Source: an uncultured Candidatus Cenarchaeum sp. (GTDB lineage: Archaea; Thermoproteota; Nitrososphaeria; Nitrososphaerales; Nitrosopumilaceae). From it: DNA of 64,000 nucleotides. This document shows positions 16,532-43,670 of this stretch, in pieces. The stretch is from assembly GCA_958295735.1 (NCBI GenBank), contig OY282369.1, forward strand, positions 480,161 through 544,160. Reading direction: 5' to 3'. A model generated the notes under the pieces. That model saw only the letters and a program-made list of their open reading frames with translations. It was not told the origin of the DNA and ran no database searches. Both the position numbers and the translations under genes were made by a program. Each line of letters starts with the position of its first letter. Within the stretch, counting starts at the first letter, position 1.

Positions 16532-16626
16532 GGACCGGTTGTCTAGTGGCTAGGATGACGCACTCACACTGCGTAAGGGCGCCGCGCGCCCCGCAAGGGT
16601 CGTGGGTTCAAATCCCATCCGGTCCA
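16532..16626 (+). tRNA. tRNA-Val (anticodon CAC) with a ~22-base insertion in the variable region
   Basis: Acceptor stem GGACCGG (16532-16538) pairs with CCGGTCC (16619-16625), discriminator A at 16626, and CCA follows in the DNA (to 16629). The D arm is GTCT/GGAT, the anticodon stem ACGCA/TGCGT (16558-16562 and 16570-16574) encloses loop CTCACAC with anticodon CAC at 16565-16567, and the T arm is GTGGG-TTCAAAT-CCCAT. Between the anticodon and T stems lie 27 bases where 5 are expected. The excess can fold as GGGCGC-CGC-GCGCCC and could be a non-canonical intron or an extended variable arm. The anticodon loop itself carries no intron. Confidence 0.9.
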
Positions 16627-16629
16627 CCA

Positions 16630-21488: not shown

Positions 21489-21716
21489 CGGCGCGGATCC
21501 TCCCCTCCGTCCGCAGCCGCCCCGCCCCGACGCGGGAGCGCCTCCGCCCGGGGTCGGCCACTGCCGCCGCCCCCCGCGCGGCTGCCGCCCGCGCCCCCGC
21601 CGAGGGGCGCCCGGCCCTGCATTCCACGCCGCCCCGCGCGCCCGGGCCGCCATTCCAGCAGCATGCGCGGCCGTCGTCGCGCCGGTAGATAAACTATCCA
21701 TGGAGCGGGCGGTATG

Positions 21717-21917
21717 AGGTCACGTACCCGTCAATTACAGGCGTGAAAACGACTTCGCCGATCCGGATTCACGCCTGAGGAGTGGGGGGTGCTGACCTCG
21801 TACAGCGGGCGGCATGAGGCCACGGACCCGCTGGTCACAGGCGTGAAAGCCACTCCGTTGATCCGGATTCGCGCCCGGGGAGCGGGGGTTGCCGGCCCCG
21901 TACAGCGGGCGGCCCGG
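21717..21917 (+). repeat. Dispersed palindromic repeat, family A (two tandem copies)
   Basis: Two copies about 96 bases apart. Each has an outer arm ATGAGGTCACG or ATGAGGCCACG, the inner arm CAGGCGTGAAA, a GATCCGGATTC centre and the complementary inner arm TTCACGCCTG (exact in the first copy, degenerate in the second), then a closing TGACCTCGTAC-like arm. The nested inverted repeats resemble a MITE or REP-type element. It lies just upstream of the giant lipoprotein gene. Confidence 0.75.
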
Positions 21918-22040
21918 CCTTTTCCCGCGAAACCTCGCGGCCCGCCGCCCGTCCCGGGGCGGCGCGCCCCGGCGGCCGCGGCGGCCGGTTTTTCGCGCAT
22001 AAAATCCGAGTCGTGTGATGGACTGCGCGATTGCGAGGGT

Positions 22041-22140
22041 TTAAATTTTGGCCCGCGGCAGGCCCGCCGACATCGGTTCAAACCGACCGGGGAAACACGG
22101 CTGGCGGCCAGTGCGTTGTGCCGCCAGCCATTCATTTCAC
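22041..22140 (+). ncRNA. Candidate small RNA with TATA box and stable hairpin
   Basis: A TTAAATTTT box at 22041-22049 is followed about 26 bases later by a sequence without a convincing reading frame. It can form a small TCGG/CCGA hairpin (22073-22086) and a perfect 10-base-pair hairpin GGCTGGCGGC / GCCGCCAGCC (22099-22108 with 22120-22129, 11-base loop), then the AT-rich ATTCATTT. Both neighbouring genes are on the other strand, so a plus-strand promoter here would serve a separate transcript. A second TATA-like CATAAAATC is at about 21998-22006. It is not a tRNA, SRP RNA or RNase P RNA that I can recognise. Confidence 0.35.
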
Positions 22141-22149
22141 GCGGGAGCC

Positions 22150-22325
22150 CCCGCCCGTCCCGCGCGCGGCGCCGCGCCGCGGGGCCGGCGCGGGGATGCC
22201 CCGCCGATCGGGCCCGCGCGGGGCGGGGAGGCCGGCGGCCCCGCGCGCCCGAGACCAGCTGGGGGATGCGAGCGCCGGCCGCGTCTCCGCCGGGCGGGGA
22301 GGCCAGCGGCCCCGCGCGCCATACA
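22150..22325. repeat. GC-rich direct repeats downstream of the M3 peptidase gene
   Basis: A stretch of about 30 bases around GGCGGGGAGGCC(G/A)GCGG followed by CCCCGCGCGCC occurs twice, ending near 22250 and 22322, about 80 bases apart. No coding potential was seen. It sits at the 3' end of the peptidase gene. Confidence 0.5.
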
Positions 22326-24122
22326 CTAGGCCGACCGCTCCAGCTCGCCCACCTGCCCCGATATGTAGTCGAAGCCGTCCTGCCAGAACCGGCCGGACGA
22401 CACGTCCATGCCGTGCTCGGCGAGCAGCGCCTCGGGGTTCCTCGAGCCGCCCGCGGCGAGTATCTCCTCGTACGAGCGCGCAAAGTCCCGCCCCTCCCTC
22501 TTGTACCTCTGGAACAGCGAGAGCGCCAGCAGGTTGCCGAACGAGTACGCGTAGCAGTAGAACGGGGCGTGAAAAAAGTGGGGTATGCAGGCCCACTCGT
22601 CGGCAAAGTCCTCCGAGACGTCGACCGAGCCGCCGAACTGCTCCCTCAGGCCCGACAGGTATGCCCGCGACAGGTCGCCCGGCGCCGCCGAGTCCGTTAT
22701 CATGCGGTGGGCCTCGACCTCGAACGCCGTGAAGTGCGACTGGCGCATGACCGTGGCGTACAGGTCGTCGATCTCCTCGGCCAGCATGGCCCTCCTCTCG
22801 CGGGCATCCGCCTTTTCCGACAGCGCGTCGTGCAGCAGGAGTTCGGAGAACGTGGACGCCGTCTCGGCCAGGGGAAGCGGGGCCTGGTGGACCAGCGCCG
22901 AGCGCCCCGCGGCGGCCATGCTGTGCACCGCGTGCCCGAGCTCGTGCGCCAGGGTGAACACGTCCCGCGAGCACCCGGTAAAGCTCAGCAGGACGTACGG
23001 CACGACGTCGGGGGACGGGGAGCTGCAGAAGGCCCCGTCCCGCTTGCCCGGCCGCACCCGCCAGTCCACGTGCCCGCCGTCCACCACCCTCCTGGCGTGG
23101 GCGGCCAGCGCCGGGCTGAACCCCCCCAGCGATTCCAGGACGAGCCGCGCGGCGGCGGCGTACCCGTACCGCTTCCGCGGGCGGCGGCCGGGCGGCGGGG
23201 CCGGCGCGTACAGGTCGTACCTGCGCAGCCTGCCCGCCCCGATCATGCCCGCCTTTGCCTTGAAAAAGCGGCGGAACACGCCCGCGTTGCCCCTGCACGA
23301 TTCCAGCAGGGCGGAGACGGCCCCGTCGCTCACGTCGTTGTCCGCGTTGCGGACGGACAGGGGGGTGCGGTGCTTCCTGATCTCCACGCCCTCGTCCGAC
23401 CAGTTGCGCGCTATGTTCTGGTATATCTCCCCCAGGACGCCCCTGCTCCCCGAATGCGCGGAGAGCAGCGACCTGTACGCCGCCCGCCGCGTGGAAGCGG
23501 ACGGGCTCCGGATCAGCGCGGCCACCTCCTCCCGGGTCAGGCGCGCCCCGCGCCCCCGGCGCGGGCCCCCGGCGGCGCCCACCTTATACCGGAACGCGCC
23601 GGTGATCTTGTCGTACAGCCTGGCCATCGCGGAGGCGCCGGTGGCGTCCAGCGTGTTGATTATCTTCTCCTCCGGCTCGGCCAGCGAGTGCCTCGCCAGG
23701 CGGCGCTCGTGCGCCAGGTGGTCCCGCAGCTCGCCCGACCCGGCCATCAGCCTCTCCGCGTTATCCCCGTCGATGCCGTTCTGCCACCACAGGTCAAAGT
23801 ACACGCTGCGGTTGGACACGTCGGCCCCGACCTTGGCCATCCTGCCCAGGAGGGCGGTGGCGGGGCCGGACTGCGTGTCCGCCGAGTGCAGCAGCGACGC
23901 GTAGCCGTGCAGCACGCCGGCATCCCTCGCCAGCCGGTCCAGCATGCGGAGCAGGCGGGCGAACGAGGCGGCATCCATCCCCGGATCCAGCGAGCCCCTC
24001 TCGCGGGCGAACGAGGCGGCCCGCCGGCGCAGGGCCGCGAGGCGCTTCTCCAAGCCGGGGGCGCCCACCAGCTCGTCGAGGTCCCAGCCGCCCGCCCCCA
24101 CGCCGCCCGCGGCCCGCCCCAT
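22326..24122 (-). CDS. pepF: Oligoendopeptidase F-like M3 family zinc peptidase
   Basis: Cytosolic zinc metallopeptidase that cuts oligopeptides. 598 residues, typical for the M3B/PepF group. The zinc motif is TLAHELGHAVHS (HEXXH), with the third ligand Glu in PLAETASTFSELLLHDAL about 25 residues later; the C-terminal FFHAPFYCYAYSFGNLLALSL helix pair and YEEILAAGGSRNPEALL are conserved features. The N-terminus is a helical domain without a signal peptide. A CCGTTTTTTTAGC stretch at about 24144-24151 on the minus strand places a promoter 24-28 bases before the ATG. It is likely involved in peptide turnover, perhaps of peptides imported by the cell; that link is inference. Confidence 0.95.
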   Translation of the reverse strand: MGRAAGGVGAGGWDLDELVGAPGLEKRLAALRRRAASFARERGSLDPGMDAASFARLLRMLDRLARDAGVLHGYASLLHSADTQSGPATALLGRMAKVGADVSNRSVYFDLWWQNGIDGDNAERLMAGSGELRDHLAHERRLARHSLAEPEEKIINTLDATGASAMARLYDKITGAFRYKVGAAGGPRRGRGARLTREEVAALIRSPSASTRRAAYRSLLSAHSGSRGVLGEIYQNIARNWSDEGVEIRKHRTPLSVRNADNDVSDGAVSALLESCRGNAGVFRRFFKAKAGMIGAGRLRRYDLYAPAPPPGRRPRKRYGYAAAARLVLESLGGFSPALAAHARRVVDGGHVDWRVRPGKRDGAFCSSPSPDVVPYVLLSFTGCSRDVFTLAHELGHAVHSMAAAGRSALVHQAPLPLAETASTFSELLLHDALSEKADARERRAMLAEEIDDLYATVMRQSHFTAFEVEAHRMITDSAAPGDLSRAYLSGLREQFGGSVDVSEDFADEWACIPHFFHAPFYCYAYSFGNLLALSLFQRYKREGRDFARSYEEILAAGGSRNPEALLAEHGMDVSSGRFWQDGFDYISGQVGELERSA

Positions 24123-24177
24123 GCCGGCGGCGGGGCAGGCCGCTAAAAAAACGGTGCGGGCGCGCCGCGGCCCAAGA

Positions 24178-24429
24178 CTAGCCGTACTCTTCGTGCGCGT
24201 AGCACCAGCGCCAGCGGCCGTCCGGCGCCGCCTCCATCACGGGATGGCCCGTCTCGGCGAAGTGCTTCGCGGCGTGCCGGCCCACGGACGAGTCGCAGCA
24301 ACCCACGTGCCCGCACTCCACGCACACGCGGAGGGCCACCCACGGCAGGCCCTCCTTTTCGCACTTCGCGCAACCGCCCGCGGAGGCCCCCGCCCGGCCG
24401 GCCGCCGCGAGGTGCTCGCACGCGCCCAT
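24178..24429 (-). CDS. UBP-type zinc-finger protein
   Basis: 83 residues forming a single ZnF-UBP domain: CEHL near the start, CAKC, LRVCVECGHVGCCDSS, then GRHAAKHFAETGHPVM and WRWCYAHEEYG. In eukaryotes this finger binds the free C-terminus of ubiquitin; stand-alone archaeal and bacterial copies occur, but their ligand is unknown. An ATG start at 24429 with a CTTTAATT box about 26 bases upstream (24450-24458) supports the gene. All expected Cys/His ligands are present. No ubiquitin-like gene is nearby. Confidence 0.93.
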   Translation of the reverse strand: MGACEHLAAAGRAGASAGGCAKCEKEGLPWVALRVCVECGHVGCCDSSVGRHAAKHFAETGHPVMEAAPDGRWRWCYAHEEYG

Positions 24430-24601
24430 GCGTCGGGGCGCGGGGGGGGCGAATTAAAGCCTCCCGTCCGCGGCTCGTCCCGCGATCGCGCCTGCGGCGC
24501 GGCCGTTTTTCGCGCCCGAAAACGGGATCGCGGGCAGGGCCGCCGCGGGCGACATTCGAAAGCGGAAATGCCTCGGGGTTGCTTTTAGAAAGCGGCGCCG
24601 G

Positions 24602-27600
24602 CTAGTCGCACGAGAAAGAGTACGCGACGGTCTGGTTCATGCTGCCCGTGAGCGCCGGCGCCCCTTCCAAGTTGACGCGGAACGAGATCTCCGCGGATCC
24701 CGCGGAGGCGATGTCCGATAGGACGGGCATGAGCACGCCCGGCGCCGCGAGATCCGTCCAAGCGCGGTTGCCCGCCGTGCTGATCTCCGTTATTGACGAC
24801 GGGAGCATCGCCGAGTTGGCGAACATCCACGAGGTGGAGTTCAGCGTGACCGAGCTGACCGCGAGGGTGCCCATGTTGGTTACGGTCTGGTTGAGCGCGC
24901 CGGACGTGGCGCCCTGGGCCAGTTCGTCGAAGCTCAGCCCGCCCGTGGCCAAGCGTATCCCGCACGAGTCGGGACCCGTGACCGTGCCCGACTTTACCCA
25001 GCCGTCCGGACCGAACACGAACTTGCCCAGCCTGTTCGGGGTGTGCAGGTCGCCCGCGGCGTCCAGCGTTATGCCGGGGCCCAGGGCCCCGTCCAAGTTC
25101 GTCGCCGCGGCGTGCACTTGGTCCTTCACGTCCGCCGAGGTGATGAGCGAGGCGTTGGGGGCGGGGGCGGCGGCGCGCGCCATGCCGATCGAGTCGCCGA
25201 TGAGGAACAGCGAGTCGTACGCGGAGTAGGAGAAGACCGTCGTGTAGACCTCCCCGTTGGTGTAGTAGTTCACCAGATCGTCGATCCTCTTGTTCTGGGG
25301 CACGTCGAGCTCGAAGGTCGTGAGGTTGGCCGTCCTTGCGAACGCCTCCGCGTTCGCGCCCAAAAGCTCGGCGCGCGGGGCGTACAGTATGCCGCTGGGG
25401 ACGAACCAAGGCACGCCGCCGGCCGAGCTCAGCCGGACGTACGGCTTGGCGGCCTCGGCCATGGACTCAAAGTCGCCTTCAAAGCCGGCGAACAGAATCG
25501 CCACCGTGCCGCGCGGCTCGGTGGCGAGCGTCCTGTCCAGCCTCGCGTTCAGGTCGGCGGCGAACGAGTCCCAGTCGTACGCGCCTGGCTGGAACGTGTA
25601 CCCGGCCAGCGTGTCCAACCCCAGCATCGGCAGGAGCTCCGACACCGAGGAGTTGAACGTCGTGCCGTACGTGTCGTTGCGGACCACCGGGATCACCTTC
25701 TTGATGCCCGCCTCGTCAAGCGCCTGCGCCATTATCGGCGCCTCCTTTGCCGTGCCGAACGTCAGCCGGAACACCGAGTCGACGGACCTGAGGTCCGCCG
25801 CCGAGGACGTCGAGTACGGGCTGACCAAGACGACCCCCGTCTCGTCGGAGTACCGCTTCGCCGCGGACAGGGCGGAGCTCGTCGTGGGCCCGACGTACGC
25901 CAGCGGGCCGTCGGCGCTGCCGCTGGAGTTGTGCAGTGACTGCAAGCCGGCTGCCGAGCTGTCGCCCCTCACCAAGTTGAGGTAGTACCGGCCGGTGTCG
26001 TTGGCGGCCAGATCCGCGAACCGCCCCTCCTGCCTCTTGTTGAAGTCGTTCACGGCCACGCGGACCGCCTCCCACTGCTCGCGGTCGTACCTGGGCTCCG
26101 TAGAGAACAGGCCCCCGACGTCGATGCACTCAACCGTGTTGGCCTGGTCCGCGCAGTAAACGTTGGTCACGGAGGCGACGGACTGCCTTACCCACTTTTG
26201 CTCCGCGTCCGACACGCCGAACACGGCGTAGTTCTGCGGGAGCCGTATGTCGCCGGCCTCGTTGAGGACTATGTCGCCGAGGGCGCCCGTGTAGTTGCGC
26301 GCCGCGTCCGTCACGGCCGCCCTCACCGCCAGCGGATCGTAGCTTCCGTCCTCCGCTATGACAGCCTTGACCGCGGCGCCGAGCACGCCCACGGCGTCGT
26401 ACGCCGAGTTCGAGTACTGGGTGCCGATCGAGATCAGGCGCCTGTTGATGTCGTTGGGGGCCACGTCGTACAGGACGCCCGTGAGGTTGACCGAGCGGGC
26501 GAACTCCAGCGCCGCCGGCGTGCCTATGGCTTCGGCGCTGTTGGCCGTGCCGTCGGGGACGTACCACGCGACGTCGTCCATGGCGGAATTGGCGGCCGCG
26601 TGGGAGGCGATGCTCGCGAACTCGTTGCCGAACCCGATGAAGACCACGGCGATGCTGCTGTTGTCGTGCTGCGCCGTGGCGGCATCGATCGCGGTGCTGA
26701 GGTCGGACGCGATGTCGGCCCAGTTCGCTCCCGACTCCGCGTACCGTATCCTGTCGGCCACCGCCGCGCCGTTGACCTCGAACGTGGCGGATACGGCGGT
26801 GTCGAGGCCCCGGCCCCACACGTCGTCGCGTATCACCGATATGATGCGCGTGATGCCGTCCTCCTTTATCAGCTCGGCCAGCAGCACGCCCTGCTTCGTG
26901 TCGTCGGGGACGAGCCTGTACAGGCTGTCGTCGGGTATCGCCAAGGCGGGAGCGGTCGACGAGTGGCTTATCAGCAGGAGGCCTTCCGCGTTGGCGTAGG
27001 CCAGCACGCGGCCCGTGTTGCCGCTCGTGGACGGGCCGATGAACAGCGTGTAGGCGTCCGTCTCGTGCGCCTCCGTTATGCCGGCAAGGGCATCGGGGGC
27101 GCTGGACCTGGCATCGGGGCTGATGCGGATGTTCTTCGTGTGCATGTCGAGGTAAAAGTCGCCGATCAGCTCGTGCACCGTGTTGAAGTCGTCGACGGCG
27201 AGCCGCATGGCGAGCAGTTCCTTGTCGTCGGTGTAGACGAGGTTGTCGTCAAGCAGCAAGAGGGCTCCAAAGTCGACGACGGGCGTCCCCATGTAGGTGT
27301 CCGTCTTGGCCCACTCGTAGCCTCCGCCGGCCGCGTCCCGCACCTCCCACTTTGCGTAGCTGTTCGGCGTGCGCAGGTCGCCCGCCGCGTTGAGCACGAT
27401 GTCGCCTAGGGCGCCCGAGTACTCGCGCGCGGCGTGCCTGAACGTCTGCCTGACGTCCTCCGGCACGTGATCCCTGCCCTCCGCGGCCGCCGCCTCTTTT
27501 GCCTCCTGGATGGCGCGGCCCAGCACGAATATCGCGTCGTACGACGAGAACTCGTATATGGTCGGGTCGTCCACGCCGGCCGCCTCGAGCTTGCCCATGA

Positions 27601-30600
27601 CCTCCGCGAACTTTGTGTTGTTTTCCACGTCGAATATGGTCGCGGTCAGGTTCACCGCCTCGGCGAACTCGCCCGATTCCAGTATCGACGGCTTCGCGGC
27701 TATGCCGTCGGTGCCGAACCACGGGACGGTCTTGATCTCCGCATAGTTGTCGGCCACTGCGGCCAAGTTGTTGAAGTCGCCCTGGAACCCGATGAACAGC
27801 ACCGCCACGGGGTCGGTGGCGGAGGCCGCGTGCAGGCGGGTGATGATCCCGTCAAGATCCTCGGCGATGGCCGTCCAGTTGGCTCCCGTCTCCGGTATGG
27901 TGACGTGCTCCACCTCCACCAAGTGCACCGCCAGCCGCTCGCTAGTTGAGGCGTTGAGGCCGGTGCCCCACGTGTCGTCCCTGGTCACCGTCACTACCCT
28001 CTCGATGCCCGTCTCGTTGAGCAGGCTGGCCAGCAGCGCTCCCTGCTGGTTGTGGACTATGTCCGCCAGCACGACGCCCTGCTGGTGGTCGTTGGGCACG
28101 AGCCGGAACAGGCTGTCGTCCCTCACGGCCAAGGACGGGGCCGTCGAGGACGGGCTCACCAGCACCAGATCCAAGTCGTTGTCCTGGGAGTAGTCCAAGG
28201 CCCTCTTGCTGTTGCCGCTGGTCGACGGGCCCACAAAGTACGACGGGCCGCCCTCGCCGCCGAATGCGGCGGCCAGCACGGAGGTCACGTTCGGGAGAGA
28301 GGCGGTCGCGGCCGCGGGGGAGATGCTGATGTTGCTCGGCTTTAGGTTCAGGTAGACGTCGCCCAGCCCCTCCTGCTCTATGTTGAAGTCGTCCACGGCC
28401 ACCTCGAACGCTATTCCCCTCCTGTCGTCGTTGAAGCCCTCGCCCCTCACCAAAAGCGCCCCCACGTCGACTACCGGCGTCTCGTACCTGATCTTCGTGT
28501 CGACCCAGTCGCCGCTCGTCGCGTTGAGCTGCCATACGGCGTACTTGTCGGGGGTCCTGAGATCGCCCTTTGAGTTCAGTATGATGTCGCCGAGCGCTCC
28601 CGTGTACCCCTCGGCCGCGCCCGGAATCGCCGCCCTCAGTTCGGCCGGCCCGTACCCGGGATCGGCCGCGCGCGCCGCCTCGGCCGCCAGCGCCAGCACG
28701 TGTACCGCGTCGTACGTGGAATAGTCGTACGCCGTGGGCGCCAGTCCCGCGGCCTCTATAGCGGCATCTATGCGGGCGGTCTTTTCGTTGGGGGCGATGT
28801 CCAGCGACAGGGACGTCAGGTTTACCGCCTTTGAAAAGTCCAGGACCGCGCCCGCCTGCAGCGGCTGGGGCGGGTACACGACGGCGTCCGGCAGGTACCA
28901 GTGGACGGACCGGAGGGCGGTGCTGGCGTTGGTCGCCCCCGCCGCCACCGCTTCAAACTCGCTGTCGAACCCGAGGAACGCCACCGCCACGTCGGCATCC
29001 GACCTGGCGTTCTGCGCTGCCGTTATCTCCGACTGGACGAGGTCGTTCATCCGCGGCACCAAGGTGTCCCAGTCCGCATCGGTGTCTGGGTACGACATGC
29101 CGGGAGCCATGGTGATGCCGTCGAGGGCCACCACCGCCGCGGTGAGCGTGTCGTTCAGGCTCGTGCCGTACGCGTCGTCCACGAATATGGGAACCAGCAC
29201 TTCCACCGACGCATCGGAGGCCAAGTTTGCTATGACTCTCGCCTCCTCCTCGGAGCTCACCGCGATGCGGAACGCGTTGTCGCCGGCGATCGCCAGCGAG
29301 GGCGCCGTCGAAGTCGGGCTCAGGAATGTCAGATCGGCATCGTGCGCTATCGCCTCCGTCAGATCGGCGCTGGTGGACGGGCCGATGTAGTACTGGAGAT
29401 TTTCGCCGTCCTCCTCAAGCTCCGTGATTACCTGGTCCGAGGTGTGGTGGGCGGTCATGTTGCCCAGCACCATGTCCAGCCGCAGCTTGCCGGCCCACAG
29501 CGCCGCCTCGTTGTAGTCGGATACCGCCGCCTTTGCCGACTCGTGCCTGTTCAGGTCGTTGAACTTGTCGGTCGCGTTGAGATCGAACAGGGCCCCAAAC
29601 CTCAGGGTGGCCGGCGTGTGATCGTACGCCCGCGTGGAGCCGTTGGCGCTGAGCACCAGCACGTCGCCGCCCGAGCCGACGGCCACGTCCTGCGGCTGGA
29701 AGTCCTCCGGAAGAGTCACCTCTGCCAGCAGCGTGCCGTCGGAGCCCCTGATCACCGCGAGCGCGGGCGGGGGGACGCCGCCGTCTGCGGCGTCCGTGCC
29801 CTCGGCGACGGCGTAAACCAGTCCTAGGCCGGGATCAGATGCGGAGGAGACGGAGACGTTTCCCGGTATCGTGACGTCGCTCATGTGGGCAGGCGCCGCG
29901 GGATCCGATACGTTGTACACGGAGATCTTTTTCTCCCCGAGCACGAAGAGTTTGCCGGACGCCGCCTCGACGCCCATTACCATCCCCTCGGCCGGCACGT
30001 CCGCATTGCCCGCGTTCGCGTGGGTGTATTCGCCGGTAGCAGGGTCCGCTACGGTGATCACCTGCACGGTGTTGTGCGCCGCGTCCGCCGCCGGCTTGTG
30101 CGTCGCGATCCCGTAGGCGTGGCCCGACGGGCCCGCGGCTATGTCGGTAAAGTTGTAGGCAAAGTCGTAATCAAATGCGGCAGTTCCGGCGGCGAGCTTG
30201 TCGGTGCCGTTGATTACCGCCACGTTGCTCTCGGTAGCCACGTAGACTAGGCCGTTGGCCTGGTCTATTGCAAGCGCTCGCGGGTCTGCCGCATCCACCA
30301 TGTCGCCTGCACTGTCCCAGACTTGCACGGCTACGGTGCTGCTGATCGCGTTGCTGCTGTCGATCACGCCCACGCGGGACGTCGTCGCGTTGCTCGTGGC
30401 GTCGGTCTCAGTGTACAGGACGTACGCCTTGTCGGCGCCGTGGTTTACGGCGATGTCCACAATCGCCACGGTGAAACTGGCGTTGCCCACATTGACGTTT
30501 TCTGCGCTACTACCGTCGGAATCCAGCACCCGCACCGTCCCGGAACCGGAGTCGCCAACGTAGATCGTGCCGGTATCGGCGTTGGCCGCTATTATCTGGC

Positions 30601-30745: not shown

Positions 30746-30779
30746 GAGTTGGCGAACCGCCGAATACAGAGTTAATAAA

Positions 30780-32328: not shown

Positions 32329-32559
32329 TCAGTCGTCGGGCGGAGGACTAGGCTTGACCGGCCTTAACCCCGTGACCGGGTCAAGCGCGGCATCGGGTAT
32401 GAGCATCGCCATGCTGCCGTAATAGTACTCCTTTTCTTCCCTTTCCTTCTTTTCTGGCATTCTGTGTATGAGGCCACGTGCCCGCAGCCGCAAGCGTGAA
32501 AGCGCCTTCGCTGATCTGGATTCACGCCTGGGGAGTGGGGACTGCTGACCACGTACCAT
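32329..32559 (-). CDS. Small hypothetical protein whose 5' half is a family A repeat
   Basis: 76 residues: a basic N-terminus (MVRGQQSPLPRRESRSAKAL...), a charged middle (MPEKKEREEKEYYYG) and the end DPVTGLRPVKPSPPPDD. The ATG at 32559 lies 26 bases from a CTTTAAAAAG box (32581-32590 on the minus strand), the standard leaderless geometry here, so transcription is plausible. The first half coincides with a family A repeat, so the repeat supplies codons. An internal ATG at 32460 would give a 43-residue product lacking the repeat-derived part. No family is recognised; the gene call is tentative. Confidence 0.4.
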   Translation of the reverse strand: MVRGQQSPLPRRESRSAKALSRLRLRARGLIHRMPEKKEREEKEYYYGSMAMLIPDAALDPVTGLRPVKPSPPPDD

Positions 32560-32567
32560 GCTGTCTT
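32461..32567 (+). repeat. Dispersed palindromic repeat, family A
   Basis: TATGAGGCCACGTGCCCGC, AAGCGTGAAAGC, GATCTGGATTCACGC and CTGCTGACCACGTAC follow in the same order as the copies at 21.7 kb. The central inverted repeat GCGTGAA / TTCACGC is intact. It overlaps the first half of the 76-codon gene on the minus strand. Confidence 0.75.
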
Positions 32568-32589
32568 GTTTCTTGCCGCCTTTTTAAAG

Positions 32590-33233
32590 CAGATGTTATT
32601 GCCGACTAGCGCAAAAGCCGGTGCCCGGCACGCCGTTTCCATCCCGCGGATTCCCGAAAACGCGCGGCTTGGCGGGACGGGACGGCGCCCGGCAGGATCG
32701 CCGCGGCTCCGGCGGCGGGGGACCCCGGCCGGCCGGGGCCGGCGCGCGGCGCGGCATTCGGGATATTCCTGGCAGGACGGGCGGCGCGGGAACGCCGGCC
32801 GCGGCGCGGGCGGGGGCCGGCGGCCGCCCGCGGAATGCCGCGGCTGCGCCCGCTAGGATCGGCGGGGCGCCGCCGTTCCCGCGGACGGCCGGCGGCCGCC
32901 CGCGGAATGCCGCGCCCGCGCTCGCCCTGCCGGGCCGTGCCGCGGGGCAGCGGGGCATCACGGTGCTGCCGGACGCGGGCGCTTCCAGCCGTCCGCCGGG
33001 CCCCGGCTTGCCGGTTTTTGCCGCCGGGTTCGGGCCGGGCGGGGCCATGGGCATCCCGCGGCCGCGGCGCCGCGGCCTCGTCCCCGTCCCCTTCCGGCGC
33101 GCTGCCCCGTTTGCCTCCGCCCATCCGAAGCGGGCGTTCCCCGACGGCGCGCCGTTTTGCCGATGGCGGCCCCGCCGCCGCATCGGCTTCCCGGCGCGAA
33201 GGCCGGCGCCCGCGGAATGCCGGGGCGCGGCGG
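32590..33233. other. Gene-free GC-rich region with GCCCGCGGAATGCCG repeats
   Basis: About 640 bases between the small gene and aroA. The 15-base motif GCCCGCGGAATGCCG occurs at 32826-32840, 32898-32912 and 33208-33222, the first two within a 27-base identical block 72 bases apart. No convincing gene, RNA or promoter was seen other than the box of the 76-codon gene at its left edge. Confidence 0.6.
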
Positions 33234-34601
33234 TCAGGGCCGCGCCGCGCCGGGGGCGGGCCCGACCTCCGCGCCGAGGAGCCGCAGGTGGTCGAAATAG
33301 TCGGGGTACGATATGGCCACGCACCCGGCGTCCCGCACGACGGCGCCGCGGCCCGCTATCCCGAACAGCGACAGCGCCATGGCGATCCTGTGGTCGGAGA
33401 CGCCGCGATCGCCCACGGCGCTAAAGTCGTGCGGGCCCCCGAGCGCCCCCGCGCCGCCCCCGTGGACGGTCATCTCGTCGGGGCCCGACTCGGTCCTGAT
33501 GCCGTGCCGGCCCAGCTCCCTCTCCATGACGGCTATCCGGTCGGTCTCCTTTTCGCGGATCTGCGGCACGCCGTGCAGCCGGGTGCTGCCCCGGGCGTGC
33601 GCCCCGAGGACGGCCAGCACGGGAAGCAGGTCCGGCGCGTCGGCCAGGTCCTCGTCGACGCCCTCGAGATCGCTCGGCCCCGCGATCCTCACCGCCGCGC
33701 CCCCGCCCGTGTGGCGCGCATCGGCGCCCATGCGGCGCAGCACCTCCACCACGCGCCGGTCGCCCTGCGCGTCGCCGGGGTCGAGCCCCCCCACGGTGAC
33801 GTCGGACTCGGCGAGGCAGGCGGCCGCCATGAGGAACGCGGCCTGGGAATAGTCGCCGGGCACCGCGTACCGCGCCGGCGGCCGCGGCTCCTGCCCGCAG
33901 CGCACGGCGTACACGCCCCCCGAGCGGGCGGCGCGGATGCCGAACCGGCCCAGCACGTCGATCGTCACGTCCACGTACGGCCCCGAGACCGTCGGCCCCC
34001 CCGTGCGCACCTCCACGTCCGACTCGGCCAGGGAGCCGACCATCAGCAGCGCCGTCACGTACTGGGAGCTCTTGGGGTTAGGCATGTCGGCGCGCCCGCC
34101 GCGGAGCCCCCCCGGCCCCGCCCTGACCGGCGCGTACTCTTCCGTCGCGCCGGAGGCGCCGGGGCGCCTCTCCCCGCGCACGTCGGCCCCCAAGTCGTTG
34201 AGCGCCCGCACGAGCTGGCCGGTGGGCCTGTTCCGCAGGGACGCGTCGCCGGTTATGGTGGCCGAGCCCCGCGAGGCGGCCGCCATCGCCACGGCTATGC
34301 GCAGCGCCGTCCCCGAGTTGCCCACGGACACCTCGGCGCCTGCCGCGTCCGGGCCCCCCGCGCCGAACCCCGTGACGCGGAGGGCCGGCCGCGGGCCGCC
34401 CCCCTCCCATGCGGCGCGCGCGCCCATCGCCCTGCAGGCCCCGACCATGGCCGCGTTGGCCTCCGAGTTCGACGGGTTCTCTATGAGGGTCTCGGTCCCG
34501 TACAGCGAGGCGGCGGCCACCGCGCGGTGCGTGTACGACTTTGAGCCCGGCGCGTCGACCCTCCCGGAGAGGCGCTTCGCGCCCCCCACCAGCACGTCCA
34601 C
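33234..34601 (-). CDS. aroA: 3-phosphoshikimate 1-carboxyvinyltransferase (EPSP synthase)
   Basis: Sixth step of the shikimate pathway: joins PEP and shikimate-3-phosphate. 455 residues. Conserved segments are GSKSYTHRAVAAASLYG (Lys 21 region), SVGNSGTALRIAVAMAA, GDASLRNRPTGQLVRAL, PNPKSSQYVTALLM, PGDYSQAAFLMAA, and the C-terminal REKETDRIAVMERELGRHG with DHRIAMAL. The GTG start at 34601 is about 26 bases downstream of a GTTAATTA box (34622-34630). No other shikimate gene is in the window. The C-terminus carries a short extra Gly/Pro-rich tail. Confidence 0.96.
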   Translation of the reverse strand: MDVLVGGAKRLSGRVDAPGSKSYTHRAVAAASLYGTETLIENPSNSEANAAMVGACRAMGARAAWEGGGPRPALRVTGFGAGGPDAAGAEVSVGNSGTALRIAVAMAAASRGSATITGDASLRNRPTGQLVRALNDLGADVRGERRPGASGATEEYAPVRAGPGGLRGGRADMPNPKSSQYVTALLMVGSLAESDVEVRTGGPTVSGPYVDVTIDVLGRFGIRAARSGGVYAVRCGQEPRPPARYAVPGDYSQAAFLMAAACLAESDVTVGGLDPGDAQGDRRVVEVLRRMGADARHTGGGAAVRIAGPSDLEGVDEDLADAPDLLPVLAVLGAHARGSTRLHGVPQIREKETDRIAVMERELGRHGIRTESGPDEMTVHGGGAGALGGPHDFSAVGDRGVSDHRIAMALSLFGIAGRGAVVRDAGCVAISYPDYFDHLRLLGAEVGPAPGAARP

Positions 34602-34622
34602 GCGGCGCGGGGGCCCCGCGAT

Positions 34623-36221
34623 CTAATTAACCCTTGGCGCGGCGGCCCCCGCGCGGCGGCCGCGGCGGGCCGCCCTGATCCTGGAGGTCGCCAGCCACGC
34701 GGCGCAGGCGGGGGCGGCCACGTACATGCCGAGTATGGCGGACAGGGCCAGCATTCCCAGCAGCAACGCGGCGCCCTCGCCGCCCTCCTGCCAGTCGGCC
34801 AGCGGCGACATGGCCGCGTGCGCCACCAGAACCATCGGGGCGACCAGGGCGCGGACGGCCCCGCGGAGCTCCGGGCTCTGGCGCTCGGCGTCAGCCACGG
34901 CGGGCGAGAACGAATAGTACACGCTGCTGAACGCTGACATGAACGCCGAGCCCGCGCCCGTCCGGAGCAGCGGGCCGTCGCGGATCTCGCGCAGCTGCTG
35001 CACCTGGGGCGCCAGCTCCGTCCCGTACGCGGCGGTGGCGATCAGGCACCCTCCCCCGCTCTCCGTGGCCACGCAGGTGCCGTCCCTGAGCTCCGTGCCG
35101 GGGCCGCATTCGGGGTCGCCGGCGGGAGGCTCGGGCTCCGGGACCGGCGCGGGGGGCTCGGGCGTCGGCTCGGGCTCCGGGGCGGGCGCCTGCGGCTCGG
35201 GCTCCGGGGGCTCCGGGACGGGAGCGGGAGCGGAAGGCTCCGGGACGGGAGCAGGAGCGGAAGGCTCCGGGACGGGAGCGGAAGGCTCCGGGACGGGAGC
35301 GGGAGCGGAAGGCTCCGGGACGGGAGCGGGAGCGGAAGGCTCCGGGACGGGAGCGGGAGCGGAAGGCTCCGGGACGGGAGCGGGAGCGGAAGGCTCCGGC
35401 GGGGGCGCCTGCTCGGGCTCGGCCGGCGGGGGCGCCTGCTCGGGCTCGGCCGGCGGGGGCGCCTGCTCGGGCTCGGCCGGCGGGGGCGCCTGCTCAGCAG
35501 GCTGGGTCGCCCGCTCAACCTGCAACCCGGCCTCCCTCTCGACGGCCGCCCTGCGGGCGGCCGCCTCCGGATCCTCGGGCTCCGGCGCTGCAGGCGTCGG
35601 CTCCGTTGGTTCGTCGCTCACGCGGCCCACGGGCTGGATCGGCTGCTCCGGGGCCTGCGCCGGCGGCGGGTTCTCGCCCGCCTGGCTCGGCTGGGGCGGC
35701 AGCTGATCGCACATCTGCCGCTGGCTAATGGGATCCGACGTGACCGTGACGGTGAACGCCTTGCGCAGTTGAACGGTCTGCGAGGCGCCGGGCACCTCGG
35801 GCGCCGCCGTGGCCGTGCCCTCGTACTCGCCCGGCGCCGCGTCCGCCGGGACGGCCATGTGAATCCTGCTGAACACCTTGCTCTGGCTGGCCGTAATGGT
35901 CACGCTCGCCGGCACGGGGGTGACGAACTGCGCCGCCTCCCCGGCCACCAAGAACCGCACCACTATGCCCGCGTCGGGGATCGCGTCGGGCTCGGTCTCC
36001 TCCACCACGAAGGTGCCGAAGGCGCAGCCGCCCGCCGAGATCGTCTTGTCCAGCGAGTAGAACGGCCCGACCTGGGTCAGGAACGAGGCATCGGCCTGGC
36101 GCGGGGGCGCGAGGAACGCCTGGTCCCCGCCGTTGTCCGCCGCGGGCTGCAGCAGCAGCGCGACGGCCGCCACCGCCAGGGCAGGGGCCGCCCTTGCGGC
36201 TAGGCGGGCTCCGCGATGCAT
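34623..36221 (-). CDS. CFI-box membrane protein with long Pro/Glu stalk
   Basis: 532 residues. N-terminal signal (ALAVAAVALLLQ), then a domain of about 130 residues with VVRFLVAGEAAQFVTPVP and Ig-like strands, then a Pro/Glu/Ala stalk of about 170 residues built from EPEQAPPPA and EPSAPAPVP units, a small Cys-containing turn (DPECGPGTELRDGTCVA), and the C-terminal CFI-box module: GGGCLIATAAYGTELAPQVQQ, REIRDGPLL, FSSVYYSFSP. It ends with hydrophobic segments (LVAPMVLVAHAAM, ALLLGMLALSAILGMYVAA) and a basic tail, a membrane-anchored arrangement. CFI-box modules are known only as sorting-like domains of unknown role. The ATG at 36221 follows a CATATATAC box by about 26 bases. Its stop is 22 bases before the aroA start, so the aroA promoter lies between the two genes. 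Confidence 0.85.
   Translation of the reverse strand: MHRGARLAARAAPALAVAAVALLLQPAADNGGDQAFLAPPRQADASFLTQVGPFYSLDKTISAGGCAFGTFVVEETEPDAIPDAGIVVRFLVAGEAAQFVTPVPASVTITASQSKVFSRIHMAVPADAAPGEYEGTATAAPEVPGASQTVQLRKAFTVTVTSDPISQRQMCDQLPPQPSQAGENPPPAQAPEQPIQPVGRVSDEPTEPTPAAPEPEDPEAAARRAAVEREAGLQVERATQPAEQAPPPAEPEQAPPPAEPEQAPPPAEPEQAPPPEPSAPAPVPEPSAPAPVPEPSAPAPVPEPSAPAPVPEPSAPVPEPSAPAPVPEPSAPAPVPEPPEPEPQAPAPEPEPTPEPPAPVPEPEPPAGDPECGPGTELRDGTCVATESGGGCLIATAAYGTELAPQVQQLREIRDGPLLRTGAGSAFMSAFSSVYYSFSPAVADAERQSPELRGAVRALVAPMVLVAHAAMSPLADWQEGGEGAALLLGMLALSAILGMYVAAPACAAWLATSRIRAARRGRRAGAAAPRVN
35140..35495 (-). repeat. Pro/Glu-rich coding tandem repeats
   Basis: Two in-frame arrays: about seven units of roughly 27 bases encoding EPSAPAPVP, then four units of 30 bases encoding a PPPAEPEQA-type stalk. 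The units are nearly identical at the DNA level, pointing to recent slippage or recombination. Confidence 0.9.
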
Positions 36222-36276
36222 GGCAACGCGCTCCCGTCCGCGATTCCTGTATATATGCGATCAGTTGGGCGCCGCA

Positions 36277-36504
36277 TCAGGCCCAGCGGCTCCCCTCCTC
36301 GGCCTCGTATATGGCCGAGTTGAGCTTGGCCAGCAGCCTCTTCTTGGAGCGCTCGGCCTTCCCGCTGTGGCCGTAGTCCTTCTTCTCCACGAGCGACTGC
36401 AGCCGCCGGAGGTCGCCCAGCGGCATCCCCTTGAGCCCCCTCTTGGCCACGACGCCGAGCAACCGCACGCGCTCCTTGTCGTCCGGGGTGAGCCGGTAGT
36501 CCAC
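36277..36504 (-). CDS. Hypothetical basic protein, 75 residues
   Basis: Lys/Arg-rich helical protein: MDYRLTPDDKERVRLLGVVA, KGMPLGDLRRLQSLVEKKDY, then KAERSKKRLLAKLNSAIYEA. It is probably a nucleic-acid-associated or ribosome-associated small protein, judged only from charge and helix content. The GTG start at 36504 lies about 25 bases after a CGCTTAAACG box (36524-36533). It is divergent from the alcohol dehydrogenase gene across 93 bases. The family is not recognised. Confidence 0.75.
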   Translation of the reverse strand: MDYRLTPDDKERVRLLGVVAKRGLKGMPLGDLRRLQSLVEKKDYGHSGKAERSKKRLLAKLNSAIYEAEEGSRWA

Positions 36505-36597
36505 GCCGCCCCGCCCGCCGGCGAGCCGTTTAAGCGTGGCGGCGCCTGGCGCCCGCCGCTGGAAATGTAAAAATATCGAGGGCGCCGCCGCGGCCGC

Positions 36598-37641
36598 ATG
36601 GCCAAGATGCGCGCCATGGTGCTCTCAAAGCTGGGGCCCGTCGAGGGCGACCCGCTGCGCCTCACCGAGGTGGACAGGCACGAGATCCGCAGGCCGCGCG
36701 ACCTGCTGGTGAAGATAGAGGCCTGCGGCGTGTGCCACTCCCAGCTGCACGCCATAGAAGGAGACTGGAAGGAGTACGGCATCCCGCCGCAGCTGCCCAC
36801 CGTCCCGGGCCACGAGGTGGTGGGCAGGGTGGCCGAGGCGGGCAGCGGCGTCACGCGGTTCGCCGTCGGCGACAGGGTCGGCATCTCGCCCCTGCTGGAG
36901 TCGTGCATGGACTGCGCGTACTGCAGGGAGGGCAAGGAGCAGCTGTGCGAGTCCATGGACGTGCTCGGCGAGTCGCTCAAGGGGGGCTACGCGGAATACG
37001 TCACCGTGTCCGAGGACTTTGCGACGCGCGTCCCCGACGGCATGGGCGCGGCGTACGCCGCCCCCCTGTTCTGCGCGGGGATAACCGCGTACAAGGCGGT
37101 CAAGGCCAGCGAGGCCGGGCCCGGATCCACGCTGGCCGTGTTCGGGATAGGGGGGGTGGGCCACATGGCGGTGCAGTTCGCCGGGATCGGCGGGGCCGCG
37201 GTGGTGGCGGTCTCCAGGGGGGACAGGCACCTGGAGGTCGCGAGGAGGCTCGGCGCCGCGGCGGCGGTGAGGTTCGACGGGGGCGACGTCGGCGGGACGG
37301 CGGCGGCGGTGAAAAAGGCCGCCGGCGGCGCCCCGCCGGACGCGGCCGTGGTGTTCGCCCCGTCCCCCGAGGCGACCGAGTGCGCCATACGGTCGGTGAA
37401 GAAGGGCGGCACCGTGGTGGTCGCGACGGTCGGGAAAATAGGGGGGTTCCTGGCGTTCGAGGAGAAGACCGTGCGCGGCACCCTGATCGGATCCAGGAAG
37501 GACATGGAGGAGGTGGTCAGGCTGGCGCACGAGAAGGGCCTCGAGGTGGTCACCGAGGAGCATCCCCTGGAGGAGGCCAACGAGGTGCTCCGCAGGCTCA
37601 AGGCCTCCAGGATAGACGCCAGGGCGGTGCTCATCCCGTGA
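36598..37641 (+). CDS. Zinc-dependent alcohol dehydrogenase (MDR family)
   Basis: NAD(P)-dependent medium-chain dehydrogenase of 347 residues. The catalytic zinc ligands are Cys in EACGVCHSQLH and His/Glu in PGHEVVGRV; the structural zinc lobe is CMDCAYCREGKEQLC; the Rossmann loop is AVFGIGGVGHMAVQ. Substrate cannot be told. The ATG at 36598 is 27 bases from a GTAAAAATAT box (36567-36576). The next gene starts inside its stop (GTGA), implying cotranscription and a possible functional link with the DUF6659-like protein. Confidence 0.93.
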   Translation: MAKMRAMVLSKLGPVEGDPLRLTEVDRHEIRRPRDLLVKIEACGVCHSQLHAIEGDWKEYGIPPQLPTVPGHEVVGRVAEAGSGVTRFAVGDRVGISPLLESCMDCAYCREGKEQLCESMDVLGESLKGGYAEYVTVSEDFATRVPDGMGAAYAAPLFCAGITAYKAVKASEAGPGSTLAVFGIGGVGHMAVQFAGIGGAAVVAVSRGDRHLEVARRLGAAAAVRFDGGDVGGTAAAVKKAAGGAPPDAAVVFAPSPEATECAIRSVKKGGTVVVATVGKIGGFLAFEEKTVRGTLIGSRKDMEEVVRLAHEKGLEVVTEEHPLEEANEVLRRLKASRIDARAVLIP

Positions 37642-38048
37642 GCCCCGACGGGGATGCAAAGGCCGCGCTGGCCGCCGCGTGCGACTCGCTGCTGGAGGAG
37701 CCCGGGATGCGCTTCGCCGGCGTGGTGAACAGGATGGGCAGGCTGGTCGTGGGCCGGTTCAGGGAGGGGGTAAAGTCCCACCTGGACGACAAGGAGGACG
37801 GCATGGCGTACATGGAGTTCGCCATGGAGGTGTTCCTCAGGACGGAGTTCGACGACAAGCTCGGCGCCGTCGAGTACGTCCTGTCCAAGAGGAAAAAGAT
37901 CAACGTGATCAGCATCCCCGTCGGGGGGCACGTGGTGCTCGTGTCCACCGAGCCGGGCGCGGACGTGGAGGGCATAGTGGGCCGCGCCGGCGCGGCCTTC
38001 GCCGCCGCGCGCCCGGGGATGCCGCCGCACGGGGGCATGGGGGCGTAG
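37638..38048 (+). CDS. DUF6659-like protein
   Basis: 136 residues, starting with GTG overlapping the dehydrogenase stop. The core reads MRFAGVVNRMGRLVVGRF, FAMEVFLRTEFDDKLGAVEY, KINVISIPVGGHVVLVSTEP. This resembles the thaumarchaeal DUF6659 family, which looks like a roadblock/profilin-type sensory fold (inference from the strand and helix order). The C-terminal Ala/Pro/Gly tail is low complexity. No signal peptide. Function is unknown; the coupling to the dehydrogenase is the only clue. Confidence 0.75.
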   Translation: MSPDGDAKAALAAACDSLLEEPGMRFAGVVNRMGRLVVGRFREGVKSHLDDKEDGMAYMEFAMEVFLRTEFDDKLGAVEYVLSKRKKINVISIPVGGHVVLVSTEPGADVEGIVGRAGAAFAAARPGMPPHGGMGA

Positions 38049-38059
38049 CGGGCGCGGCC

Positions 38060-38175
38060 TGCCGGGGCCCGGCGGGCGGGGCGCGGGCTCGCGCCCGAGC
38101 CGAGGCCGCGCCCGGCGGCAGCAAGCCGCCCCGCGATCCCGCGCCCGGATCGCGGCGGACGCGAGTCCGCCCGGC
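38060..38175 (+). repeat. Promoter-upstream palindromic repeat, family B (38 kb copy)
   Basis: It contains CTCGCGCCCGAGC, CGCGCCCGGCGGCAGCAAGC, CGATCCCGCGCCCGGATCGC and a closing GGACGCGAGTCC palindrome, and ends about 15 bases before the TATA box of the following small gene. The best match is the 57.1 kb copy, which is inverted with its gene. Confidence 0.75.
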
Positions 38176-38219
38176 GGGCAGCCGCAGCATTATAACCGGA
38201 GGGCCCCGCCGCCCCCCCG

Positions 38220-38378
38220 TTGCACTGCGGCAGATGCCACCACGCCGACGTGGCGCACGGGGGCCCGGACGGGGACATGTCGTCGTCCGTGCTGGGCCTC
38301 GGCGCGTGCGGGGTGCCCGGCTGCGCCTGCCCCAGGTACGCGGACGCGATGCGCAAGATAGACGAGGAACTGGTCTAG
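38220..38378 (+). CDS. Small Cys/His-rich protein, 52 residues
   Basis: A gene read from TTG at 38220: start LHCGRCHHADVAHGG (initiator read as Met), then GLGACGVPGCACPRYADAMRKIDEELV. CxxC...CxxxxCxC plus His suggests one bound zinc or an Fe-S centre. A CATTATAAC box at 38189-38197 is centred 27 bases before the TTG, the geometry of most genes in this window, and a family B repeat precedes it. It is short but has the composition of a protein, ending in a regular charged helix. Family unknown. Confidence 0.65.
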   Translation: MHCGRCHHADVAHGGPDGDMSSSVLGLGACGVPGCACPRYADAMRKIDEELV

Positions 38379-38427
38379 CGGGCCGGCCCGGTGAAGAGAC
38401 ATATAGGCACGCGCGGCCGGCGGGCCC

Positions 38428-38688
38428 GTGGCCCGACGGCACGCACCGGCAGACGAGATGAGGAGCGACATCGACGCGATGCTGTCCAAGGTGAACGCCC
38501 TGGAGGTCGCATCCGCCGACGAGGTCCAGCGCGGGACGGCCAAGGTGCTCAGGGCGCTGGCGGAGGGCCAGCTCCACTCGATCAACGAGTTCGAGCATCT
38601 GAAGAAGGCCATAGACCTGCTCACGCTGCAGATGTTCGAGGCGCGCAGGGCCGCATCGGCGGCGGGCGGCGGCCGGCCGCCCGGGTAG
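38428..38688 (+). CDS. Hypothetical helical protein, 86 residues
   Basis: Almost entirely helical: MRSDIDAMLSKVNALEV, ADEVQRGTAKVLRALAEGQ, HSINEFEHLKKAIDLLTLQM, then a Gly/Pro tail. Heptad-like Leu/Ile spacing suggests oligomeric helices. The GTG start at 38428 is 26 bases from a GACATATAGG box (38398-38407). It converges on a small zinc-ribbon gene 6 bases downstream. The family is not recognised. Confidence 0.75.
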   Translation: MARRHAPADEMRSDIDAMLSKVNALEVASADEVQRGTAKVLRALAEGQLHSINEFEHLKKAIDLLTLQMFEARRAASAAGGGRPPG

Positions 38689-38694
38689 CGGCGG

Positions 38695-38871
38695 TCAGGC
38701 GCCGGGGTCCCGCTTGGGAACCGTGTTGCTGAGGCCGCATCCGGCGCACCGCACCAGGACGGACCTCCCCAGATCCCTCTCCGCCGCCATCCTCCCGCCG
38801 CAGCACGGGCAGCTCGCGCCGGCGCCCCCCGCGGTCAGGGCCGCCGCTCCTCCCCGCCGGATCCGTTGCAC
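38695..38871 (-). CDS. Small zinc-ribbon protein, 58 residues
   Basis: Two knuckles, CPCCGG and CAGCGL, separated by MAAERDLGRSVLVR, form a zinc ribbon; the tail is SNTVPKRDPGA. The frame is open further upstream; the GTG at 38871 overlaps the end of the upstream gene by 37 bases, suggesting translational coupling. It could be a transcription- or RNA-associated ribbon, but nothing decides this. Confidence 0.6.
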   Translation of the reverse strand: MQRIRRGGAAALTAGGAGASCPCCGGRMAAERDLGRSVLVRCAGCGLSNTVPKRDPGA

Positions 38872-39176
38872 GCGGGCCGGTAGCTTGACACGATCCTGTC
38901 CACGACCCGCCGCCGCTCGCCGCGGCTTGCCCCGAACATCGGGAGTATGCACAGGTACATCCGGTCGTCCCGGCGCCCGCACCCCTCCAGCCAGCACTTG
39001 AACAGGTCGCTGCCGGTGAAATAGTCCTCCTCGCCGGTGCTCTCGCAGTCCCCCGCGTACACTATGGCGAACCGGTCCTTTTCGTCCCGGGACATCACCA
39101 GGTAGACGACCTTTTCCATGGGAGGCCCCCACTCGGAGAGCCGCACGGGGCCCAGGAACTCGTACTGGAGTATCAT
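38835..39176 (-). CDS. Hypothetical protein, 113 residues
   Basis: Start MILQYEFLGPVRLSEWGPPM, then EKVVYLVMSRDEKDRFAIVY, a STGEEDYFTGSDLFKCWLEG segment and RMYLCILPMFGAS; the last 30 residues are basic. The order of strands and helices suggests a compact alpha/beta fold. GIY-YIG-like spacing can be imagined but the GIY-YIG motifs are absent. A clear TATA box is not visible; the upstream DNA is the 39.3 kb family A repeat. It is probably cotranscribed with the zinc-ribbon gene that overlaps its 3' end. Confidence 0.7.
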   Translation of the reverse strand: MILQYEFLGPVRLSEWGPPMEKVVYLVMSRDEKDRFAIVYAGDCESTGEEDYFTGSDLFKCWLEGCGRRDDRMYLCILPMFGASRGERRRVVDRIVSSYRPACNGSGGEERRP

Positions 39177-39248
39177 CACGCTCAAGCGGCGACGCCGCGC
39201 AGCCGCCGGATTTCTGCCTTTCTGCGCGGGGCGCCGGGGCGCGGCCCC

Positions 39249-39346
39249 GTGCAGTATGAGGCCGCGCGCCGGCCGGCCGCGGGCGCGGAAGCGACTCCGA
39301 TCCGGATTCGCGCCCGGGGAGCGGGGGGCGCCGGCCCCGCGCGCCG
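39249..39346 (+). repeat. Dispersed palindromic repeat, family A (degenerate)
   Basis: AGTATGAGGCCGCG, GGGCGCGGAAGCGACTCC, GATCCGGATTCGCGCC and GGGGAGCGGGG follow in the family A order, with arms shifted toward G and C. It lies between two divergent small genes and close to the promoter of the 39.4 kb gene. Confidence 0.65.
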
Positions 39347-39393
39347 CGCTCCCGTAAAGGGTTAAATTCCGCGCGGGGCGGCGCGGGTTCCAG

Positions 39394-43211: not shown

Positions 43212-43670
43212 GCGGGCGCGGCCGGCTCCCGCAAGAAAAACCTTGGGCCCGCGCGGCCGCGCGGGGCCGGCAGCCCCCGCGTCGCGGGCGCGGCGGGGAT
43301 CGGCGGGGCCGCTTTCGCGCCCGCGGCCGGCGGGCGCGCGGCCCCGGGCGCGCGGCCGCCCCCGCGGGGGGCGGGGCGCCGCCGGGCGGCCGCGGGCCGG
43401 ATGCCGCCGGATGCCAGGCGGGGCGGGCCGGCGCGATCGCGGCGCGGAGAACGGTGCCGGCGGCGGCGCGCGGCCGGCGGCGGCCCGGGCGCGGCCGCCC
43501 CGGCCCGCGGGCCGCGGCCCCGATGCGCGCGGCGGTTCCCCTTTCGGGAGCCGGCGCCCCGGCCCTCCGCATCCCCCCCGCGCCTCGTAGGCATCGCGCG
43601 GGCCGGGGCGCGTCTCGAATGCGGATTCGCGGGGCCGGCGGGGCGCGGGCCCGCGCCGCGCCGGCCGGCG
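43212..43670. repeat. GC-rich spacer with a family A copy and a family B-like promoter segment
   Basis: At 43230-43350, read on the minus strand, the family A order (GCGGGCGCGAAAGCGG, then a GCCGATCC centre) is recognisable. At 43600-43665 a CGGATTCGCGG...GCGGGCGCGGGCCCGCG-type palindrome like the one before sucC ends close to the TATA box of the next gene. Open frames in between are compositionally uninformative. Nothing else was seen. Confidence 0.5.

Follow-up and report, generated by a model that had tools for sequence, protein, structure and literature searches.

Some eukaryotic retrotransposons are known to integrate under the guidance of promoters; the yeast element Ty3 is guided by TFIIIB. 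IS66 insertion sequences typically leave an 8-bp target duplication, and in their three-gene form carry the accessory genes tnpA and tnpB. Repetitive extragenic palindromic (REP) sequences and bacterial interspersed mosaic elements (BIMEs) are moved by REP-associated tyrosine transposases (RAYTs), which are Y1 transposases, and leave no target duplication. In the sections available to us, published work describes a narrow insertion window of Ty3 upstream of genes transcribed by RNA polymerase III (Pol III) (PMC8632968). For the Dictyostelium element TRE5-A, the accessible parts of another paper report insertion ∼47 bp upstream of tRNA genes (in an assay, 80.2% of insertions fell within 47 ± 3 bp); this is just upstream of the range of TFIIIB, and the ORF1 protein binds the TATA-binding protein (TBP) in vitro (PMC5391098). 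Correia elements lie mostly immediately upstream of genes, according to the part of a review that we could consult (PMC10969869). Here we consider a 64,000-nucleotide stretch, called the window, from an uncultured Candidatus Cenarchaeum sp. (GCA_958295735.1, contig OY282369.1). It covers positions 480161–544160 of a one-contig genome of 3,166,131 bases, has a GC content of 65–76% in 4-kb steps, and contains several copies of a short palindromic element, family A. The best explanation, in which we have reasonable though far from full confidence, is that family A consists of miniature inverted-repeat transposable elements (MITEs) that are moved by an IS66-type transposase and inserted at the upstream edge of promoters, the site being found through TBP and transcription factor B (TFB).

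The initial annotation had listed six places in the window with nested palindromes, sharing arms and a centre, and had likened them to a MITE or a REP-like element moved by an unknown transposase. All six places are real, as a profile made from 60 genomic copies recovers them with E-values of 2e-25 to 4e-6; the true ends lie a few bases outside those first given. The only other match of this profile in the window is copy 1 on the opposite strand (E 0.007). The common arms and the GATCCGGATTC centre are also confirmed in the four better copies (93 aligned columns, 85% mean column identity), with the copy at 32466 having GATCTGGATTC instead of GATCCGGATTC at its centre. With as many as 3 mismatches allowed, the 27-base core matches the whole genome at 103 places, and a reversed control pattern at none. 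For a census of family A, the stretches around 100 listed matches of these 103 were fetched, together with further BLAST matches. With as many as 5 mismatches allowed, they hold 123 cores, 121 of which have sufficient context and 104 of which score at both ends. These short, non-coding elements have terminal inverted repeats, end in GTATGAGG and CCTCGTAC, and are 92 bp long in 76 of the 104 scored copies. An 8-bp target duplication agreeing in at least 6 of 8 positions is present in 81 of the 104, with perfect agreement in 37, while mispaired flanks give a mean of 5.8 such copies. Among those 81, agreement per position is 69–78 inside the 8 bases, 44–46 one base outside, and 20–36 beyond. When 61 genomes were searched with a 92-base query, family A was found in its own genome only.

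The transposase is not unknown, and genes with matching ends are found in the same genome. A search with a transposase relative from G016, a genome of the same family whose elements end in GTATGAGGTCAGCT, almost as family A does, gives three intact-looking homologues at home. These belong to elements of 1889, 1889 and 1911 bp (loci L240, L243 and L246), each with an IS66-type gene, ends of the type GTATGAGGTCAGCACC that match at 15–16 of 16 positions, and duplications of 8/8. As the right end of family A (GTACGAGGTCAGCACC in copy 1) agrees with GTATGAGGTCAGCACC, family A is assigned to this element, and that it is a MITE of an IS66-type element is, on the sequence evidence, practically certain. 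We infer that these transposases mobilise it. Movement by the transposases of two further families, B and D, had been considered and was dropped as unneeded once the three elements were found; cross-mobilisation by them might nevertheless occur. All three transposase types match PF03050 (DDE_Tnp_IS66; E 7e-28 for A, 1e-20 for B and 1e-16 for D). With the NCBIfam model for IS66 (NF033517, cut-off 180 bits), A (184.3) and the G016 homologue (211.4) score above the cut-off, and B (131.1/135.5), D (122.8) and two copies from relatives, L214 (132.1) and L222 (165.4), score below it. Residues D248, D297 and E416 are invariant in six transposase proteins, which we read as the DDE triad. In a Foldseek search with a predicted structure of the A transposase (pLDDT 73.6), the nearest solved folds are ISCth4 (E 6.7e-9) and Hermes (2e-4), both from other families and with ∼11–15% identity over the modelled fold; this search finds the DDE fold only, with no sign of a targeting domain. 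The A-type transposase is present in 13 of 398 genomes of the phylum.

This bears on the REP-like half of the earlier suggestion, and on a rival reading in which family A, as a REP-like element or a structured RNA, is retained because of some function of its own. It is true that one copy folds strongly as a single DNA strand (z = −5.4, with none of 200 shuffles equally stable). Against this stand the transposon ends, the target duplications and the autonomous partner; the sole Rfam match in the window at the gathering threshold is a tRNA, and the MITE of G016 keeps only the ends, with a different inner palindrome. Duplications of 8 bp and a DDE partner set family A apart from REP and BIME elements, Y1 genes not having been searched for. 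With clear duplications and a DDE partner present, the REP-like reading is unsupported and we consider it hardly credible, while the MITE reading stands on common ends, 8-bp duplications, about 100 copies and autonomous partners.

What the initial annotation had missed is the main point, the fixed position of these elements upstream of promoters. To the annotated set of 184 elements, family A contributes 113, family b 47, D 20 and B 4. Family b is a 92-bp MITE of a second IS66-type family, whose autonomous copies (∼2.3 kb) carry an IS66-type gene; its end GTGTAGACTTACGTCC has 81 matches per strand in the genome, and 39 of the 47 end pairs found are 92 bp long. Family D copies are ∼2132 bp long with the end GTACACACTTACCTCC, and the 20 annotated have duplications. 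Elements spaced by 8 bp (±2) were counted as one array, giving 158 arrays, and the target analysis uses the 128 whose duplication agrees in 6/8 or more, the other 30 having been dropped. An AT-rich hexamer was looked for within a window of 7 positions beside each array. Such a box lies beside 109 of 128 arrays, on one side only in 104 and on both sides in 5; control windows shifted outward by 20, 40, 60, 80 and 100 bp give 9, 24, 11, 18 and 23 of 128. The base profile outward from the element has the 8-mer, a spacer, AA at 15–16 and TATA at 19–25. A coding start, defined as the start of an open reading frame (ORF) of at least 50 codons with GC-rich third positions beginning 39–75 bp outward, is found on the box side in 77 of the 104 arrays with a one-sided box and on the other side in 11. 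Among these 77, the start is at 48 bp in 29 and at 49 bp in 25 (54 in total).

The offset is not a property of one family. Among arrays of one element, a start at 47–50 is found for A in 32 of 52 cases, for b in 10 of 18, for D in 8 of 13 and for B in 0 of 1; arrays of several elements have one in 11 of 20. Family A elements face the promoter with one end in 30 cases and with the other in 22. Family D has 18 of 20 copies that can be aligned (the other two, without an orientation motif, were left out), and as these are 99.1–100% identical they must be recent. In 18 of 20 D arrays the box is in place, and in 17 of these 18 there is a start codon at 46–52 on the same side; D array sides without a box have such a start codon in 4 of 22 cases. 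The three autonomous A elements each have a one-sided AT box and a start codon at 48–49, in L246 with a frame of only 28 codons. No tRNA genes were found at 27 promoters without a called gene. The converse arrangement, with a TATA box facing the element and the element lying between box and gene, was rejected, as the AA is on the element side and the coding starts lie outward. From the box at a fixed offset and the outward starts, there is little doubt that these elements target promoters, inserting just upstream of the predicted TFB recognition element (BRE) and TATA box of near-leaderless genes. The predicted order outward would be the 8 duplicated bases, ∼6 more, the BRE 'AA' at 15–16, TATA at 19–25 and the start at 48–49.

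Such a pattern could in principle also come from loose insertion into open or AT-rich promoter DNA, with selection sparing the harmless positions only. Insertions in genes would indeed be purged, and promoters in this GC-rich genome lie in AT-rich DNA. However, the offset is sharp to 1–2 bp and is seen in near-identical recent copies, positions further upstream should be equally harmless, and the same 8 bp are reused by independent elements. Loose insertion is therefore improbable.

This reuse is seen in the arrays with more than one element. There are 23 of them, and 14 mix families; some neighbouring elements are inverted, and A copies are also found head to head. Different elements at one promoter have the same 8 bp between them. 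The clearest case is a pair of paralogous units at 26.6 and 27.2 kb of the genome, reading A-ACGGCCGG-CCGGGCC.. and A-ACGGCCGG-b-ACGGCCGG-CCGGGCC.., a filled and an empty site in which b has been added on the promoter side. Copies of A, of b and of the full IS66 elements would thus line up in a stack, whichever way each is oriented, with one repeated 8-mer between them, and later insertions would reuse the same 8 bp because the promoter sets the site. Tandem duplication by recombination between the 8-bp repeats would be another way to build stacks, and three near-identical A copies head to tail at 364450 look like it. With 14 of 23 stacks mixed, some neighbours inverted and a single insertion shown by the filled and empty pair, it is refuted as a general cause and very improbable as the explanation of the stacks, and may account for a few pure arrays. 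New elements that always land beside the promoter should leave a better-preserved duplication on the proximal side. This is so in 8 arrays, with 1 against and 7 ties (p = 0.039), the other 7 of the 23 being unused as they lack one confirmed promoter. It is thus probable, judging from these duplications, that newer members of a stack lie nearest the promoter.

In the second genome, G016, the fetched loci have ∼35% GC. Archaeal AmoA was found in the Cenarchaeum genome itself, in a relative of the same genus (G001) and in G016, and in none of 14 control genomes, so that all three are taken to be ammonia-oxidising archaea. The IS66-type load of G016 is very heavy: the A-type transposase has 121 matches there, and many of these contain stop codons. 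The end GTATGAGGTCAGCT matches there 182 times at up to 2 mismatches, compared to 9 for controls. The G016 MITEs, 77–81 bp long, resemble family A in pairing an end of the GTATGAGGTCACGT type with one of the GTATGAGGTCAGCT type, and differ from it in the middle. Of 56 end pairs, 19 have a duplication of at least 6/8 and were used for the TATA count: a TATA-like hexamer starts at 19–20 in 10 of these 19, and at 39–40, 59–60 and 79–80 in 1, 0 and 1. Start codons are at distance 48 in 7 of 38 flanks, with a mean of 1.96 per position. The amoA gene (MVWLRRCTHY..) has the end of a MITE 49 bp upstream of its ATG, which places an element at the promoter of a gene that is key to the nitrogen cycle.

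How the site is found is a further question. An IS66-type DDE transposase of the same genome would move family A in trans and insert it at the upstream edge of core promoters, recognising the site via DNA-bound TBP/TFB. Alternatively, the transposase itself might read the sequence or shape of BRE and TATA, with no transcription factor needed. The clear 'AA'-then-TATA motif at a fixed distance from the insertion fits such direct reading, and another family of the same type, family E, seems to have its own T-rich flank. The points on the other side are indirect. Among sites scoring at or above the median motif score of the targets, a tightly spaced gene start is present at 67% of 52 targets vs 46 of 143 non-targets (32%), which favours active promoters over the bare motif; one offset is common to three families with different ends; and the sequence of the box varies. 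Direct reading of the DNA is possible and the less likely of the two, and we lean, with modest confidence, towards a promoter complex that recruits the transposase over recognition of DNA alone.

Several observations weigh against targeting of promoters through TBP/TFB. The box is not in place in 19 of 128 arrays, window copy 32466 included, and an autonomous B copy at 76330 lies inside an apparent TPR-repeat gene. Family E, intended as a control, has an AT-rich hexamer (T-runs) in range on at least one side in 4 of 6 copies, and so gives a weak contrast only and not a clean control; box and start codon are on the same side in only 1 of 6. In G016, 9 of 19 elements have no hexamer at 19–20, and among seven further IS66-type copies of relatives, one is clear (L214), one possible (L222) and five unclear (L218, L221, L224, L228 and L236). 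The newer-nearer-promoter order is weak, a cruder first count giving 8 for, 5 against and 7 ties. Finally, purging of insertions in genes could also yield the motif-matched difference, which is why recruitment by TBP/TFB is something that we infer.

In the window itself, a box and an outward start codon at 48–52 accompany both degenerate b copies and, for family A, 4 of 5 sites. The two palindromes reported at 21.72–21.92 kb are indeed two copies, and form one array: copy 1 (21712–21803, + strand, 92 bp, profile E 2.1e-25) is promoter-proximal and copy 2 (21812–21903, +, 92 bp, E 7.8e-23) distal, both with a duplication of 8/8, and the repeat AGCGGGCG is present three times (21704–21711, 21804–21811 and 21904–21911). 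The AT box gatagtttatct (21686–21697, − strand) faces away from the array. An ATG at 48 opens 59 codons and one at 59 at least 214 codons, the latter in frame with an ORF of 1618 amino acids (16845–21701). Copy 3 (32466–32556, +, 91 bp, found by the profile) has the duplication CATTCTGT/CATGCTGT (7/8), and is the sole A site in the window with neither a promoter-like box nor an outward start codon in place. Copy 4 (39254–39343, +, profile match to 39341) has a duplication of only 5/8, an AT box at 39361–39369 and an ATG at 39394 (distance 51, 118 codons). Copies 5 and 6 were found by the profile and are GC-rich and degenerate: copy 5 (412–504, −) has its AT box at about 524–530 and an ATG at 556 (distance 52, 284 codons), and copy 6 (43259–43349, −) has its box at about 43233–43241 on the − strand and an ATG at 43211 (distance 48, 118 codons). 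These two old copies have drifted to nearly pure G+C, with the adjoining box and start codon retained. The b copies lie at 38081–38172 (+, E 6.6e-8; AT box to the right, TTG at 38220, distance 48, 52 codons) and 57081–57171 (−, E 8.5e-10; AT box to the left, TTG at 57032, distance 49, 434 codons).

The 1618-residue ORF downstream of the array has NHL and Big_12-like repeats, and its product is possibly a surface protein. A tRNA-Val(CAC) at 16532–16629 probably contains an intron, as it is 98 bases long. Elsewhere in the genome there is a further IS66-type family (L252, L255, L260, L262, L264 and L266) with the end GTAATAGCTCACGATT, lengths of 1923–1968 bp and 8-bp duplications; several copies have a T-run ∼11–15 bp off the left edge, and one sits within a D transposase region. 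Three b copies (208122, L133; 698485, L129; 817194, L077) have no duplication; AT-rich sequence that is similar among the three follows each of them, ends in ctttttgacggcgctata and may be another element.

In the open-access literature, as far as the accessible portions go (including PMC10280926, PMC9944714, PMC11894787 and PMC7848895), no promoter targeting by IS66 elements or archaeal MITEs was found, which does not establish its absence from print; the available part of the MITE review (PMC10969869) does not mention IS66. If a prokaryotic DDE transposon does insert at one offset from TATA, the finding of harmless sites in compact genomes could be tested with the simpler archaeal TBP and TFB, and its insertions mark promoters in an uncultured lineage. 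Like IS66 insertion sequences, the elements described here have the transposase domain, inverted repeats starting with GT and 8-bp duplications. Unlike them, they have a fixed position upstream of archaeal promoters, are stacked on one 8-mer and have abundant 92-bp derivatives. Like Correia elements they are short and non-autonomous. However, Correia elements bring their own promoters, whereas the elements here leave the host promoter in place at one offset. The fixed promoter offset of Ty3 and TRE5-A is found here as well, but Ty3 is a eukaryotic long terminal repeat retrotransposon and TRE5-A a eukaryotic retrotransposon at Pol III genes, while here a DDE DNA transposon would act at archaeal protein-coding promoters, a parallel and not a relative. 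On balance, and by a slight lean only, IS66-type transposons of ammonia-oxidising archaea may use TBP/TFB as a landing beacon and so build promoter-linked arrays, as an independent counterpart of Ty3 and TRE5-A.

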